DNA from: Diprion similis
Taxonomy: Eukaryota > Arthropoda > Insecta > Hymenoptera > Diprionidae
NCBI RefSeq assembly: GCF_021155765.1
Contig: NC_060106.1
Location: 18,068,031-18,132,030, forward strand
DNA length: 64,000 bases
Direction of reading: 5' to 3'
Shown: in pieces, positions 49,620 through 59,956 of the stretch
Layout of the letters: every line of letters begins with the position of its first letter
Position numbering within the stretch: the first letter of the stretch is position 1
Notes under the pieces: generated by a model
Told to the model about the DNA's origin: nothing
The model's database searches: none
Seen by the model: the letters and a program-made list of their open reading frames with translations, nothing else
Program-made: the position numbers and the translations under genes

Positions 49620-51962
49620 GCTAACTAGCAGCAGCTTTTTTCCTGGTTACTTTTTTGACATCATGGCGCTGCTAGTGGTTTCTAGCCTTGTTGGTCGAGC
49701 CAGCGCGAAATTCAAATACCAATTTTGGTCTGATGCAACTCGAATTATTTTTATGCGAACGAAAAAAAAAGAAGAATGATATTGTAATACTATTATGTGT
49801 ATAAAAATCATTTTCAAGCAGATATCAGACATTTTATGCAAGTTAAAGTTTAACAGTCTGAATTGATTGATCTGGCATTTTGAGTAGTGCAATCGTCTTT
49901 TCAGATTGTAAGATCTCGATCTTTGCACAAATTGATTCTTCATTACCGTAAATAAAATGTCCGTACGATGTAGAAATAACTTGGAATGCGATGTATAAAA
50001 ATTATTATTATGCAAACATTGCAGTAGTTTGGGCAAACAGCATGCAACTCTTGAGGATTGTAAAAAATCATCACAATAGAACTATCAAGTGTGATGAACG
50101 CACAAAATGCGAAGTGCAAAGCAAAGCGTTAAAACAGCCTTTCAGATAACGATAAAACGAATTACCCAATCAAAACTTCTGATTACAAACATGATGAAGT
50201 AAACGAAATGCGCCTTGATGGTATTACAGCTGAAACGTGTTAAATCCTGTTGAACTCTTCCGAACTTTCATCCACAATAATGCAATCCAAGGAATTACAA
50301 TTAACTCCTAGCTTTGCAGCAGTGATTTCAGAAATCCTTTTGATGAACATTATGAGCTGCGGTGATAAGATTCCGTTGATAGATGAGCTTTGACTTCACT
50401 CGCGATAAGGGGTTCTAACCAGGTAACGTATTCGTATTTAATTTAATGTCGTCAGCCACCGAATAATACGACCTACATTTGAAACTGTTATAATTTATTC
50501 TCGGAAGGCACAGGAAATCGATAGGCGCTCTAATACAAGCAATGCAGCACGCATCCGAATGCGATCATTAACCCACTCTGCTTATACGAGGAAATTTTTA
50601 TTCCCCACTGCCCGTGTAATTCCTCATTTGAATTGGACTCGAAAGGATTGGAACGAACGTCCTCCAGGTTCGTGAATCACTTCACAAAATTGCATCATAT
50701 CCCAATCCTGCGCATGATGTAATCCAGTCAACGAGACATCCCAATGCCAATTAGCAACTTACCACTACAAATTTACTACACATCCTTAAGATCCTTCAGA
50801 AAGATTAGCCTGCCTGTGGTGGCCTGTAAATGATGTGCAAGAATTTTTTGCCCACCAATTGATGAAAATCCTGTTAACTATCAACAGTTGATAATACTAA
50901 AGATTTGACCTCCAAGAAAATGAGCAATTATCGATCAATCATTAAAATATACCTTTTGAGAAACGGCGTTACTTTAAAGTTGATCGGTGGGTCGTCTTAC
51001 TTGGATTGGGCTGCAGCCTGTGCGTTACACGAGGAAGATGCTTTTGGAGTGGGTGTTCCTTGTGGAGGGAAAATGGAATGACTCAAAATCGGCGTGACAA
51101 ATTACATGGTATGGACGGCATAGTCTTAGCTTTCAGGAACAGTATAATGTGCCATCCAGCTCTGCTATGTTCAGATCATGCGATCTCCGGTCCCGAAATT
51201 ATTTTTGGAAACTGTATCTGAAAGCACGATATACCTGCAGATGTATATCCGCTTATTGAACTATTCCGTTGTCAAGCAAGTAAACATTCCGTAACTCGGC
51301 GAGCGCTCACGGACTCGCTGGAAAGACCTAGTCCAACAGTCTTCAGTGTACGTAACTCGATTCTCGAGGTATAACATTCCTCCAGACGATTTCGCTTACG
51401 TTGAACAGATACGGTAGTACAACAAAACAGTCCGAAAGATGATGATACAATTTAGTAACGCTTACAAAGCCACCTTGAATGTGGTCGGAATCTGGTCCAA
51501 GTGTTTATGTGAATCTGTGAATTCACAGAAACATATAATAATAAATCTTGATGGGGTTTTTGCGTAATTATTCTTGATCGGAAAATGAGTGGATTTGTAT
51601 GAAATAAATTTATTCCAATGATCGAGGTGAGTAAATCGTATATTGTAGATTTTTTGATTATTAATTATTTTAATTGTTTATTCAATCTAGTAACGCTGTA
51701 ATAAAAGGCTAATTAATGACTCAGCTGTTTGGTATAGAACGTTTTTACGACCCTTTTCAATGCACGATGACAAGAAAATCGCGCAAATGGATTAGGGAAC
51801 AAAAATTCATTGGTATTACGCTTTCTCCTCATCCATAAAGACCATGAACAATAATTACATCGTCTCAAAATTGTCAATTATCATAATTTCAGACCAAAAA
51901 TGAATTCAGCCAAGAGACATAATGACTATCAAACAAATTAAAATGATACCAAATTAGAAAGG

Positions 51963-53315
51963 ATGGAGGACGACCGAGGGGAATGCGGCTTGTACTGTCC
52001 GGGAAGTTACACGAAGCCAGAATTTCGTCCACCGGAAGGTTTTAACATCCCTAAGTACGTGGCGGGTAATTTGAAAGTGCGGGCATCGCTGCAGAGAAGC
52101 ACGCCTGGACCTCGAGTTTTGCGTCCACCAAAAATTCAGCACACACATCGTCCAATGGAGATGCCAACGTGCCGTGACAACTTCGCGATAGCGAAAAAAT
52201 TTCACACCGAAAATTTGGAGCACCAACCGCTCCCAGATCGGGTCGACGACCGAGTCTTCGCCAACATGAATTTCGGCCGAGCGCGGTCCTGTGGCTCGTT
52301 GAACTCCTACAAGGCGCACAAAAAGTACCAGGAAGTGACACCCAAGGTGTTCCAACGGCGACCGCGAAACCAGGGTCTCAGTCAGTTGCCCGGTCCGCTC
52401 CTCGGCTGCAAGGTACCCGAGACTCGAATGGACCTCGCGATTTGCTGGGACGCGCCGATCGACCCGATCTACGAACCTAGAAGGCCGGTTCACATCGACG
52501 GATCCGACGGCGGTCCGGCTCCGGGGATCTTCACGCTGGTCCAACACCCGGCCGAAAGTTTCGACCCGGAAATCTACTCCCCAGATTTCTCGCGACCCAG
52601 GGCGGCGTCCGCTGACCCTGGAAAATTTGAACGCCTCGTCAAAGCACCGCCTTGTCAGCCGGAAAAGCGGTGCAGACCCGCGACTTCCAAAGATCAAGGA
52701 TCGCGAAGTGGTTCTCCGCGACGCTCGCCCTGCGTCGACGACGACTCTGTCGCCAGGAGCAGAATCAGCGTCCTCACGAGATACAAAACGGAAACTGAAG
52801 AAGAAGACGACGAGGGTCGGGCCAGGAAACTCCTGGAGGGATCGAGCAAGTGCCACCTCTGCAAGGGGTTCGGTGACATCCGGCTGTCCGAGGCCGAACT
52901 TGACCTCGCTAAACGCTACACCAGCTCACCTCAAGTTCCGAGACGGGACAAGCGGAAGCACGCTGGTTATCTCCGGAACTGCTCTGCCTGTGAACAAAGA
53001 AGCAAAGACGAAGAGAAGGAGCTACACAGGCGGCAACAGCGACTACAGGCTTTGCATCCTGCGGGACCCAGGATGGGGGGCGGTGATGATGCCCAGAGGA
53101 ACGGCCTTCCTACGAGCCTCCACGTGCCCAGACCGAGAACCCCCTTCGCCAGGAGGTCCTTTTGCATCGACACCCTTACTCCACCCTTCAGCGTCGTCAA
53201 GGGATGTCGAGACGCCGATTATCCCGAACACTGGCGGCTTACCACCGTCTATCAGCAATCTTACAGACCGCCTCGAAATCACAAAACCGCCCACCCATGT
53301 CGGATGAAGAGATAA
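51963..53315 (+). CDS. Uncharacterised 450-residue protein with paired CxxC motifs
   Basis: Unrecognised single-exon frame. It starts MEDDRGEC and ends HPCRMKR. It is basic and rich in Pro, Arg and Ser, with no signal peptide or membrane helix. Two CxxC pairs (Cys297/300 in KCHLCKGF and Cys340/343 in NCSACEQ) could bind one zinc ion, with an intervening acidic then basic region. An aromatic C-terminal stretch, EHWRLTTVYQQSYRP, is reminiscent of short Tyr/Trp motifs in sperm-tail microtubule inner proteins; that is a weak inference. The plus frame is preferred over the long minus-strand frame (51954-52856) and a +1 frame (52627-53307), because it is longest, has a clean start and ends, and its residue composition is coherent. 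GC3 is high, like the Sidestep-like and IMPDH exons. Confidence 0.6.
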   Translation: MEDDRGECGLYCPGSYTKPEFRPPEGFNIPKYVAGNLKVRASLQRSTPGPRVLRPPKIQHTHRPMEMPTCRDNFAIAKKFHTENLEHQPLPDRVDDRVFANMNFGRARSCGSLNSYKAHKKYQEVTPKVFQRRPRNQGLSQLPGPLLGCKVPETRMDLAICWDAPIDPIYEPRRPVHIDGSDGGPAPGIFTLVQHPAESFDPEIYSPDFSRPRAASADPGKFERLVKAPPCQPEKRCRPATSKDQGSRSGSPRRSPCVDDDSVARSRISVLTRYKTETEEEDDEGRARKLLEGSSKCHLCKGFGDIRLSEAELDLAKRYTSSPQVPRRDKRKHAGYLRNCSACEQRSKDEEKELHRRQQRLQALHPAGPRMGGGDDAQRNGLPTSLHVPRPRTPFARRSFCIDTLTPPFSVVKGCRDADYPEHWRLTTVYQQSYRPPRNHKTAHPCRMKR

Positions 53316-53830: not shown

Positions 53831-56495
53831 TCAAGTTTTATTATTCGATGTCTGCACAGAGTTAGAACGCTGATTATCGTTGTTAAAAACTTCTGCAGGT
53901 ATGTTCCCCTCGAGTCGATAAAGCTCGCCTAAAAATACAGTCTTCTCCAATCTTTCCAGAACTAATTTCTGCAGGATATTCATGAGGCTTGGAAACGGTT
54001 CTATGACTTGCTGAAAATCTTCGCGGGATAAAACGTACAGCTCGCATATCTCGACCGCCACAACGCTTGCAAGCCGCTGATCGTTCTCCATTACCAAGGA
54101 TATTTCACCAAAGTGCGCTCCATCCTTCAGATGGCAAACCTCCTTTCCTAAACTTGTGTATATAGCAACGGTTCCAGAAGCTATAAAATACATCGCGTCC
54201 CCGGTTGTCCCTGCCTTGAATATTATGTCATTTGTCAGGAAGACTTCAGTGCGTAGAGACATTGCGATACGTGATACGACGACTTCCGGTAAACACTCAA
54301 AAAATGTTACTTTTTCAACCAACTTCCGAGAGTTATGCAACGTTAGCTCCTACGAACGTAAAATTAGCATCTCTTGAGTGATTGTCTCTTGAAACATCAG
54401 TGCCGATCCTTTTTTTTTAAATAAGAACGGCGAAATACGGAAACATTTGTCATTTAAAAAATTTGTCCTTGCAAAAAAATCTCGTATACCTACCTCTTTT
54501 AAATGTGGTGATAATTGCCGCATGATACTTTTCTCCAAATCAATAGATCTCTGTGTACAATATTCGTAGTAGGTGGTCAGACGGTGTTGAATTTCAGGAG
54601 GTAGTTCCTTTTGTCTCATATATGTCTGCAATTGCGGCACGAGTCGTGAATAGTTGTTATTTGTGCCTTGACGAGCGTGTGTCAGCTGAAGCCACTGCGC
54701 TGTTGAACCAGATAAACTATTATCAGTCTTCAGATTATTCACACCGGTATCGCAATAAATCTAAGTTATCAATTTGGTGCAATAAGAATTATTGAATACT
54801 AGGAAACACCTGCCTATTACGTAGATGTTTCCTACTCGACCGCATATAGACAGGACTACATCATACATCACATCTTCTACCGAAATCATCTCATCAGATT
54901 TCAGAGCGCAAACCATGGCTGAAACTGCCCTGTACAAGGCCATATTATACTTGTAAAAAGTGTTGCCCTGCACCACGTTTGGGAGAGTAGTCCAGTTACT
55001 GTGAGGAAAACAATAGTCATTTTAGGAGCATCACTTTCATTGTTCGTCCGAGCCACTATCGGGAATTTAGAACTCGCATAGATATTGCATGAAACTTGCT
55101 GTCGGCTTGATAGAGTTCAATTATAGCAACACTCACTCGAGATCCTTGCCAGACTTAAGATACTGTCGCCGAACAGTTGCAGAAATGTAATATTCGGCAC
55201 AAGCTGCCCAATGTAGAATTAATAAAATCGAGATCGATATTGCCAAGGATTTATGTGTTTGGAATGACATGTGATAAACCTGAAAATGGCAACAAAAATT
55301 AATATTACAGAATCATATGAGGACAGATGGAAAAAAATTAACGCGATGAAAATGTTTCCCAAATTTTTACCATCACGTTTAGTAAAACTTTATTTTCATT
55401 GGTACAATTGCGTTATTATGATTAACAGCACTCACCCGTCGCAGGCGACGAGCATATACTATGAGGGTTCGCAATTTCAAAAGCTTGAGCATTTGAAAGT
55501 GACGGTACAATTGTTGGGATTGTGCATCCATTCCTGACAAGACCAAGTACAGATCCATTGGTAAGACTGGCAATACGTCGAACCAGAACCAGCCCATGAT
55601 ATATTTACTGCAAGCGTATGACCATGATGCAATTAACTTATTGTGCTTGTTTCGATAAATTTTTGTGATAGATTTATATCTCAGTTTGTCGGTAAATTAG
55701 TACCGTGCAACAAGTCTTGGTTCCAACACAACAACGTTTGTTCGGAAGTCGTGGTGTCCAGTCATAAACCACAGTACAATATCGGTCAATAAAATACTGT
55801 TCAAGAACACCGCGAAGAAAAACCATTCCCCGATTTCTATATCACCATGAAAAGTAACGTGAAACGGTAGGACAATCATGGACGCGATCACCACTAAAAT
55901 CAATAACGATTCCCAGAATATCCTGCGCAATAAAACACGTTGCTATAAGTTCAACAAATTATTATTCATTGCTTTTGGGCATATAAATAAAAAAATTATT
56001 TACAAACTTATTAAACTTTATTCGTGTGAGATTTTGAGTAATTTTGGCGTTCAATCGCTTAAGGTTTGCAAAGAATTTGAATTGGAGTTTGATTCTAGTA
56101 TACCTGAATTCACTGAATGGATGTATCATGTAGGCGTATGAATTCAAATGTCTAGTCTGTTCGTATGAGATTGCAGCTTTACTTCGCAAGCAAAACTGCG
56201 TTCGGGGATGCATTTGCGACACCAAACACTTCCGACGAAACCATCGCCGAATTTCAGCGAACCATCCGTTGCCTACTATCACATTCCTTATCTCGTCCCA
56301 TTCAGGGGGCATTTTACATTTGTGTTCGGTAACTGGAAATGTCTGATAATCCATACATGAATCGTCGAATAGATATTCAAACAAGCATCTCTGTAATTTG
56401 GAGCTCAAGTTATAACCAACAATTTGTTGTCCTACCTTATTTGCATTCGTGTTTGACTGCTCCTTAGATGTTGGTACAAGCAACATCAAATCCAT
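53831..56495 (-). CDS. HCN-like cyclic-nucleotide-gated channel with non-canonical pore, 7 exons
   Basis: Plasma-membrane channel subunit of the HCN/Ih lineage. Exons on the minus strand: 56495-56104, 55922-55704, 55607-55436, 55279-55137, 54998-54810, 54716-54494, 54349-53831, giving 618 residues with all phases joining. Order: N-terminal HCN region ending YMIHPFSEFR (about 121-131), S1-S2 (131-203), S3-S4 (204-261, S4 with Lys245, Lys248, Arg250, Arg257-261), S5 with HWAAC (262-308), pore and S6 (309-372), C-linker (YMRQKELP, YYEYC) and cyclic-nucleotide-binding domain (447-580). That domain keeps the binding-cassette residues Phe526-Gly527-Glu528 and Arg538 (QRLASV). The filter position reads C339-A-L-K-S343 instead of C-I-G-Y-G, so normal potassium selectivity is not expected. 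It is not a standard Ih channel; a modulatory subunit, an altered-selectivity channel or a decaying paralogue are all possible. Confidence 0.88.
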
Positions 56496-57202: not shown

Positions 57203-59956
57203 ATGGAAAAGTGGCTCCAAGAAAATTTATCCGGCTTATTGGACTTTCCAGTACCAACTGATTTAACATCGTTAGTAAAGAAATACAAGTTTATTACAGT
57301 GTTTTCCATAAGTTTTTAGGTTATGACTTAAATTTTTCATATGGTAAAATAATTTTTAGGAAAATATAAAACGTTCCGCTAATTTACACAGATACTCGTA
57401 GCATCATTGCTCTTTTTCTTATTACAATTCCGAAGAATGCTTAATTTAAATGTTTTGGTAAACAAAGTTTATATTATCACTGGATATCGCTAAACCTGCT
57501 GGGTAATTACAACTTGTGAGCAATGAACACTGTTGAATTTTCTAACTTACAGGTACATTCTACAAATGCAAAATGCAAGAGACTTGGATGAATACCTCAA
57601 AACTTTGCTCGACTATGATAACCCAAAGCACAGACAGTTTGTTTCGGAATTGAAAAAACGTCAAGGTAGTGTACTCAAAATATCAAAATCCATTGACCTC
57701 ACATGTTTAGAAATTTTCGCAGTTTTTGCTGCGCGATTGATGTATTCATTTTTGTTCAATAGAAATAATAAAGATGATAATGTTTTCTGTAGCCGGGAAT
57801 AACGATCTTATGGGATATAAGAAATCGAGCATATCAGAAACTTCAATCAATCCAAAGCAAAATGACAAGAAAAAAGGCAAATCTAAAGGGGCGAACCAAC
57901 AGACACAGGTTTGTTTTCAAAATTGAAAGTCTCTTGCTAGCTCAAGCGGTTCGACTGATAAGCTTATCTCACTGAAATATATAATAATTTTATTTATCAG
58001 AAACAAAAATCCTCTCATTTATTGAATACTAACTAATAAAATTCCTCTCAGAATTATGTACGACAAAATTGTTTAGATGCAGGAGAATATAAAGCCAGAG
58101 AGGGTGGAGAAGAAAAAGACAAAATTCGTCAATCTCTATTCACCAGAAGGTCGAGATAGAGAGACGATAATGTTGAAAGGTAATTGTTGTAATTCAATTG
58201 GATGATAAGGTAAAACGTACAGTAATTTTCTTTGTGATTGAGAGATTTTTTTCACAACAGGTAGACATAAGTGTAATTGCGAGGCCAAAAAGCACAGCTT
58301 AATAAATAACTGTATCAGTTGTGGAAGAATAGTCTGCAGCCAAGAAGGGGCAGGACCCTGTTTCTGTTGCGGAGATCTTGTATGTTCACCTGAACAGCAA
58401 GCACTTCTTTCAAGCAATAGCAGGCAGGCTGATAATCTTTACAATAAACTAATGGATCAAAAGCCACCCAAGGATGTGGAAGAATCCCTCAAACACAGAA
58501 ACAAACTACTTGAATATGATCGTAACAGGTAAGTACATCCAATTGAATGGAACGATATTACAAAAAGGATCAATGTTCACATAATTTTAACAAATTCAAT
58601 TACTCTCACCTCTTCAGTGCACGGAGAACAGAGGTCATTGACGACGAGTGTGACTATTACCAGACAAATAGCGTATGGCTTTCAAATTCTGAACGAGAAA
58701 AATTAGAGAAATACGAAAATGATGTCAGAGCTAAGAAGTATGGGTCACGTTTGAATAGAAAAGTCACTCTTGACTTTGCTGGAAGAGAAGTAATTGACGA
58801 TGCTGCCTTCACAGATGAAGCGAATGATCAAGTCTTGCGCAGTATCACTGAATTTAAGTCTAGTAGTACCACTATGTCTAGTAACGCATGTCCAACCATA
58901 GAATTCAATCAACCATCGGTAAGTATGATTCTTAGCTTCAAAGATACCGGGCTTACCTTAAAGGATATGAAAAATTATTCGAATGTATCATAATTTATTT
59001 CCTCAAATGTATGAAGTATTTTTTTCATGTTCTAGTATGTGGACGTTGGAATGTTGGATTCAAAGAGATCGAAGAACCTAAATACTACTTCATTTGGCTG
59101 CAGTCGAATACAGGACAAGGAGTTTTTGGAAATGGTTGACGAAGGCCTATGTCTGAGCATGCATCAACCTTACGCATCGCTTCTTACCTCCGGAATCAAG
59201 ACGTACGTTTATTTTCTTTCGGTGTTATAAAGAAAAAAGAAAATTCCACGGTGTTATGATATATTTGGGTTTCAGCCACGAAGGGAGGACATGGTATTCA
59301 GCACATAGAGGCAGACTATGGATAGCAGCAGCTTCAAAAGTACCGTCAACCGAAGAAATTACTGCGTTAGAGAATAGATATCGCGTTTTAAAAAATGGTT
59401 GGTTACCGTTCGGTTTTATCTAAAATCAGTCATTGGATAACGCGATAGTTGAAACTGCAATATTTCAATTATTTGTTTCAGAAAGCATCAAGTTTCCCAA
59501 AAGCTATCCAACTGGATGCTTACTAGGCTGTGTCACAGTGGTCGATGTTCTCTCTGAAGAGGATTACCGTAAAAAATATCCCGACGGGGATAGCGAGAGT
59601 CCGTATGTATTCATATGTGAAGACTGTCACGAATTGCCAGTAAGATTTCCTATGCAAGGCAAACACAAAATATGTAAGTATTTTAGTGTCTTTGAAAAAA
59701 AAAAAATAGCAACGTGTGCACTACTTTGTCCCCTCATTCTATTCCACAACGATTCCTTGCAGCTTATTTCATATTTATGTGGTCTAAGATTGAACCATTT
59801 AGTTTTTTGAATTTTGGAACAAATTTTGTAAAGAACTTTCGATCGCCCTATTGTTTTTTACTTGTAATATTGCCCACAGATAAATTGGATAGCAAAATAC
59901 ACCGGGCAGCAGTTAACTCTTTGCAGAGGAAAATGAAGCTTCAAGCTGGGACCTAA
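57203..59956 (+). CDS. TRIP4: Activating signal cointegrator 1 (ASC-1, TRIP4 homologue), 10 exons
   Basis: Scaffold of the ASC-1 complex: a transcription coactivator that also takes part in alkylation repair and splitting of collided ribosomes. Exons: 57203-57270, 57553-57665, 57793-57908, 58077-58179, 58261-58528, 58618-58918, 59036-59202, 59276-59397, 59482-59673, 59880-59956; 508 residues, phases consistent. The N-terminal helical region has NARDLDEYL, then a Lys-rich linker and KFVNLYSPEGRDR. The C4-type zinc finger follows (Cys138, 140, 151, 154, 159, 167, 170, 175, with HSLINNC and GRIVC), then KVTLDFAGR. The C-terminal ASCH domain (about 361-475) has CLSMHQPYASLL, GRTWYS, RGRLWIAA and GCLLGCV. 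Length compares with 581 in human. Exon 1 ends at the GTTAGT donor because that alone gives the right phase. Other donors in exon 1 break the frame. Confidence 0.93.

Follow-up and report, generated by a model that had tools for sequence, protein, structure and literature searches.

A Diprion similis HCN-like gene without the CIGYG filter motif and with a retained cyclic-nucleotide pocket

Introduction

Among the described systems closest to the locus reported here is HCNL1 of zebrafish sperm, which passages of two papers (PMC10651576, PMC11700363) present as an HCN-like protein whose pore is non-functional owing to filter changes and which conducts protons through its voltage sensor. As described in parts of one of them, the CNBD of HCNL1 is non-functional, probably for want of an arginine, and its S4 carries a regular series with methionine at the third arginine (PMC10651576). 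Sections of the same papers suggest that CNGK and HCNL1 cooperate in fish sperm (PMC11700363, PMC10651576). An HCN relative that is kept without the K+-channel signature raises the question of what a channel can do when poreless. HCNL1, whose voltage sensor passes protons, is one answer, and a clade that keeps the nucleotide pocket would be another. Our search of the open-access literature found no paper on insect HCN paralogues devoid of GYG.

This study concerns a minus-strand gene within a stretch of 64,000 nucleotides of D. similis DNA (hereafter the window), which an earlier note, made from the letters alone, had described as an HCN-like channel with an altered selectivity filter. We compared its protein with vertebrate HCN channels, with the canonical Ih channel of the same genome, and with further HCN-like genes found there.

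Results

Gene structure and kinship with HCN channels

The gene runs from 56495 to 53831 and comprises seven exons with 611 codons, open from start to stop (Table 1). Neither stops, frameshifts nor lost splice sites were found in it. Its six introns measure 96-181 bp and its pore exon 185 bp. Exon 7 submitted alone to AlphaFold gave a mean pLDDT of 34 and was unusable.

Table 1. Features of the window gene and positions of related genes in the genome. Positions without a contig label are those of the window.
Feature	Position	Strand	Basis or remark
Exon 1: start codon and N-terminus with HCN-domain-like stretch, ending at S1 start	56104..56495	-	weak PF08412 match
Exon 2: S1-S2	55704..55922	-	HCN4 alignment and gene model
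Exon 3: S3 and charge-poor S4	55436..55607	-	gene model, S4 column counts
Exon 4: S4-S5 linker and S5, HW..C retained	55137..55279	-
Exon 5: turret, pore helix, filter region, S6	54814..54998	-	GC donor TAG/GCAGGT
C-A-L-K-S replacing C-I-G-Y-G	54896..54910	-	codons and HCN4/Ih alignment
S6 Arg codon adjoining conserved Gly	54836..54838	-	aligned with HCN4 Ala (IVGATC)
Intron 5, GC-AG, phase 1	54700..54813	-	overlapping GT donor 54809-54808 gives a frameshift with the same acceptor
Exon 6: C-linker	54494..54699	-	HCN4 alignment
Exon 7: C-linker end, CNBD, stop codon	53831..54349	-	PF00027, E 2.7e-20
FGE, cyclic-nucleotide pocket	54104..54112	-
Pocket Arg, residue 531	54074..54076	-	identical in four paralogues and HCN4
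C11 paralogue	C11:7683890-7685945		529 aa, open start to stop
C4 paralogue	C4:25386418-25388827		595 aa, open start to stop
C2b paralogue	C2:22069033-22072413		600 aa, open start to stop
Canonical Ih	C2:18774335-18796492		filter LCIGYG

The assignment of the protein to the HCN relatives, made in the earlier note, is borne out by searches with the full length and with the membrane part alone, in both of which an HCN channel came first. In phmmer, the protein aligned with HCN4 (6gyn) from before S1 through to the CNBD (E 2e-64), and the best non-HCN chain among the matches listed was 5v4s (4.8e-29); for the membrane part, HCN1 (2.4e-25) was followed by KAT1 (1.3e-11). Above the Pfam cut-offs were PF00027 (Table 1) and PF00520 (9.9e-11), and PF08412 matched the N-terminus weakly (E 0.0078; 16.3 bits, under the 27-bit cut-off). 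The N-terminal HCN-domain-like stretch is 38-56% identical between the window protein and its paralogues. HCN channels (vertebrate HCN1-4 and the genome's Ih) include its best PDB match, and with them the protein shares S1-S6, the C-linker and a CNBD with FGE and the pocket arginine. It lacks two defining HCN features, CIGYG and a long, regularly spaced S4 series of about eight basic residues, and we therefore call it HCN-like rather than an HCN channel.

Filter, S6 and S4

The pore region reads YNMALYRAVSAMVCALKSDEM on the minus strand. The codons TGC GCT CTG AAA TCT at 54910-54896 encode C-A-L-K-S, where HCN4 and Ih have CIGYG; the loss of both filter glycines and of the tyrosine, and the presence of a lysine, are thus exactly as the earlier note had read them. 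In the phmmer alignment to HCN4, CALK-S stands opposite CIGYG, with one residue fewer in the window protein. Because the coding sequence is open across all seven exons, the filter reading is not a chance effect; an open pore exon by itself would prove little, since such an exon stays stop-free by chance in 8-12% of cases at 0.5-1 substitutions per site. Further along, in a gap-free stretch of 21 columns in S6, an arginine following the conserved glycine takes the position of an HCN4 alanine which we take to face the cavity in HCN channels.

S4 is shortened, its outer part is absent and its basic series is gapped. In the aligned S4 columns we counted four basic residues in the window protein, two, two and three in the other paralogues, eight each in HCN4 and Ih, and four in a KCNH control, so that S4 is poorer than in HCN channels but not poorer than in the control, and voltage sensing may survive. 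The S3 aspartate (214) is retained.

An alternative exon encoding an intact GYG, named in the earlier note as a possible oversight, was not found within the gene. A second pore exon was rejected because of intron sizes and a frame scan: introns of this gene are too short for another 185-bp exon (intron 1 being a possible exception), and the motif [CSTAV][IVLT]G[YFL]G, scanned over 53.0-60.0 kb on both strands, gave one match, outside the gene.

Paralogues in the genome

Protein and family searches of the genome yielded at least four full-length HCN-like paralogues, the window gene included; this count is a lower bound, since the searches score only the best candidates, and part of the 92 Ion_trans and 31 cNMP matches were examined. 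The gene is not a single oddity, and in this respect the earlier picture changes; the filter loss itself holds. The three other paralogues belong with the window gene in one clade, with a common N-terminal part, the signature GKE[IV]CHLxDGA and no GYG, but each has a filter sequence of its own. Neither GYG, GFG nor GLG occurs anywhere in the four proteins (4/4). The aligned filters read CALKS in the window protein, CSGFN(G) and GSSYG, with ..SYG retained in C4 and GF.G in C11. That of C2b is either CSIDS or a stretch further on, its register being unsure because extra residues lengthen the loop that follows the pore helix. Only the window protein passed the PF00520 cut-off; the other three had no match at 0.1. 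In C11, most introns of the 3' part have been lost, so that one exon of 1192 bp (L019 2591-1400, minus) encodes everything between S2/S3 and the stop, and the 5' introns remain.

In a tree of seven rows, the four HCN-like proteins fell on one branch (support 100/99) and Ih and HCN4 on another (96/98). The tips of the HCN-like paralogues measured 0.86-1.23, that of Ih 0.23. As drawn, the HCN-like clade would be older than the insect-vertebrate split, or else long branches among the seven rows account for its placement.

The paralogues also bear on the end of exon 5. All seven exons had been said to keep frame with this exon ending at 54810; the 611-aa frame stands, but it needs a GC donor. The GT donor at 54810 (CAG/GTGTTT) with the acceptor at 54699 breaks the reading frame and leads to a stop, and was ruled out. 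The most likely end is 54814, four bases earlier, where the GC donor restores the frame. C4 and C2b have introns at the same codon and phase as intron 5 of the window gene, with the donors GTACAT (C4) and GCAAGT (C2b), and 18 residues separate the last S6 residue from a conserved tyrosine in HCN4 and all four paralogues. The GT-AG pair 54810/54716 is also in frame, with six extra residues, and the filter residues are identical whichever splice model is used. One might guess that two donors four bases apart form a splicing switch. GC donors, which account for about 1% of introns, were present in 3 of the 24 introns of the four HCN-like gene models (window 54813, L022 3088 and L020 2828), which seems high beside that figure; two of the three occupy one shared position, and the third sits where C2b has GT.

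Where constraint lies

The window protein is less conserved in its pore than in its CNBD, with identities to the nearest paralogue of 19% and 63%, respectively. Of the six regions compared, P-S6 had the lowest identity in every one of the six paralogue pairs (12-20%, compared with 40-63% for the CNBD), and the most alike region was the CNBD in three pairs and a short N-terminal stretch (34-35 columns) in the other three. Identity to HCN4 in P-S6 and the CNBD amounted to 26% and 39% for the window protein, 77% and 67% for Ih, and 31% and 26% for the KCNH channel of this genome, whose P-S6 is thereby closer to HCN4 than that of any of the four HCN-like proteins (17-27%). By these identities, the CNBD ranks above the pore, contrary to the usual order. 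The window C-linker is 29% identical to that of HCN4.

Between the CNBDs of the window protein and C11, pN was 0.26 and pS 0.90; as dS is saturated for this pair, we report pN/pS alone, and its value of 0.29 (bootstrap 0.22-0.37) indicates purifying selection. The C-linker and cyclic-nucleotide pocket had been noted as intact, and FGE, the pocket arginine and the PF00027 match agree with this, except that the arginine given as 538 is residue 531 in the 611-aa model. Gly520, Glu521 and Arg531 are retained, the arginine in all four paralogues. The residue following the arginine is leucine in the window protein, threonine in HCN4 and valine in Ih. Against a CNBD profile built from the four paralogues, a Toxoplasma protein (9ya0) and four PKGs outscored HCN, so that either cAMP or cGMP is a candidate ligand.

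In neutral simulations started from the Ih helices, with the 97.5% level as the mark, the hydropathy of S1 and S2 exceeded that mark, from which we conclude that membrane insertion is retained; S5 (0.91; mark 1.32) and S6 (1.20; mark 1.30) lay above the simulation mean and under the mark.

Discussion

We propose, with moderate confidence, that the gene encodes an HCN-derived six-helix protein without a K+/Na+ pore of its own, which may act as a membrane-bound cyclic-nucleotide sensor or a modulatory subunit. At least four genes of this genome, the window gene included, have lost the motif and kept the nucleotide part, and the window protein combines a retained pocket with lysine and arginine in the pore; a non-conducting sensor or helper is therefore more probable than an ordinary channel. 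In a homotetramer, four filter lysines and four S6 arginines round the axis would repel cations, which makes cation flow through a homomer unlikely. The CNBD is predicted still to bind cAMP or cGMP, and the ligand-induced change would pass via the C-linker to a partner; Ih, one of the other HCN-like paralogues and a protein that is not a channel are all conceivable. Several observations speak against this reading: the CNBD profile favours 9ya0 and PKGs over HCN, the hydropathy of S5 and S6 stays under the neutral mark, the open pore exon is weak evidence of constraint, the S4 count equals that of the KCNH control, and in three of the six pairs the N-terminal stretch outranks the CNBD.

The protein could instead be an obligate heteromer subunit, altering the selectivity or conductance of a pore formed with Ih or with another HCN-like paralogue; we regard this as unlikely. 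CNG channels are built from unlike subunits, the C-linker and CNBD are retained here, mixed filters are imaginable given the remnants in C4 and C11, and a heteromer containing the window protein could still conduct. However, the lysine and the S6 arginine fit poorly in a cation pore, and the C-linker has diverged considerably from that of HCN4.

Still less probable is a gene in recent decay with its stops yet to come. The long branches, the eroded pore and S4 and the GC in place of a GT donor would suit it, but constraint on the CNBD and the recurrence of this erosion in four full-length genes speak against it, and stop-free neutral coding sequences are rare, amounting to 1.0% of runs at 0.05 and 0/400 at 0.1 substitutions per site; a very recent loss (below about 0.03) would be compatible, since 16% of runs at 0.02 were stop-free.

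Conduction of protons or other ions via the voltage-sensor domain is improbable too, for although HCNL1 offers the precedent of an HCN-like protein whose filter changes leave the pore non-functional, as passages of PMC10651576 and PMC11700363 report, and the window protein has a gapped S4 basic series and the S3 aspartate, HCNL1 is described in part of PMC10651576 with a regular S4 and without the CNBD arginine, whereas the window protein lacks the outer S4 and has that arginine.

The sensor or modulatory role that we favour differs from what those accounts give for HCNL1. Both proteins are HCN-like with a changed filter, the pore being reported as non-conducting in HCNL1 and predicted to be so, as a homomer, in the window protein. 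Arg531 is kept here, and the essential arginine is missing from HCNL1 as portrayed there; the S4 segments, compared by description only, differ in that one has lost its outer part and the other is regular with a single methionine.

A wider reading is tentative and, in our estimate, rather doubtful: this insect lineage would possess a clade of membrane receptors derived from HCN channels, proteins that no longer conduct ions or sense voltage and survive as receptors dedicated to cyclic nucleotides. A bolder and more speculative version would have the lysine and arginine rings form an anion-permeable pore. The four paralogues, with their differing filter remnants, are natural variants in which pore, sensor and ligand could be tested separately.

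A parallel loss of the filter may have occurred in another family of cyclic-nucleotide channels in the same genome. A four-repeat CNGK-like gene (L042, C1:459500-469000, minus; ORFs 6696-1786 and 8302-7310) has an open frame of 1637 aa and eroded filters, its pore loops reading by eye NWNNARG, TSLGVSK, RCGNG and TAVGTHD. At a second four-repeat CNGK-like locus (L043, C2:9363500-9373000) they are TGFGG, TGYGD, IGFGD and TGFGD. Near the window gene, on the plus strand, are a single-exon frame of 457 codons at 51942-53315 with DUF4812 (PF16071, 1.2e-28) and, at 58242-58532, a zf-C2HC5 domain (PF06221, 8.7e-10), presumably of the kind present in TRIP4/ASC-1.
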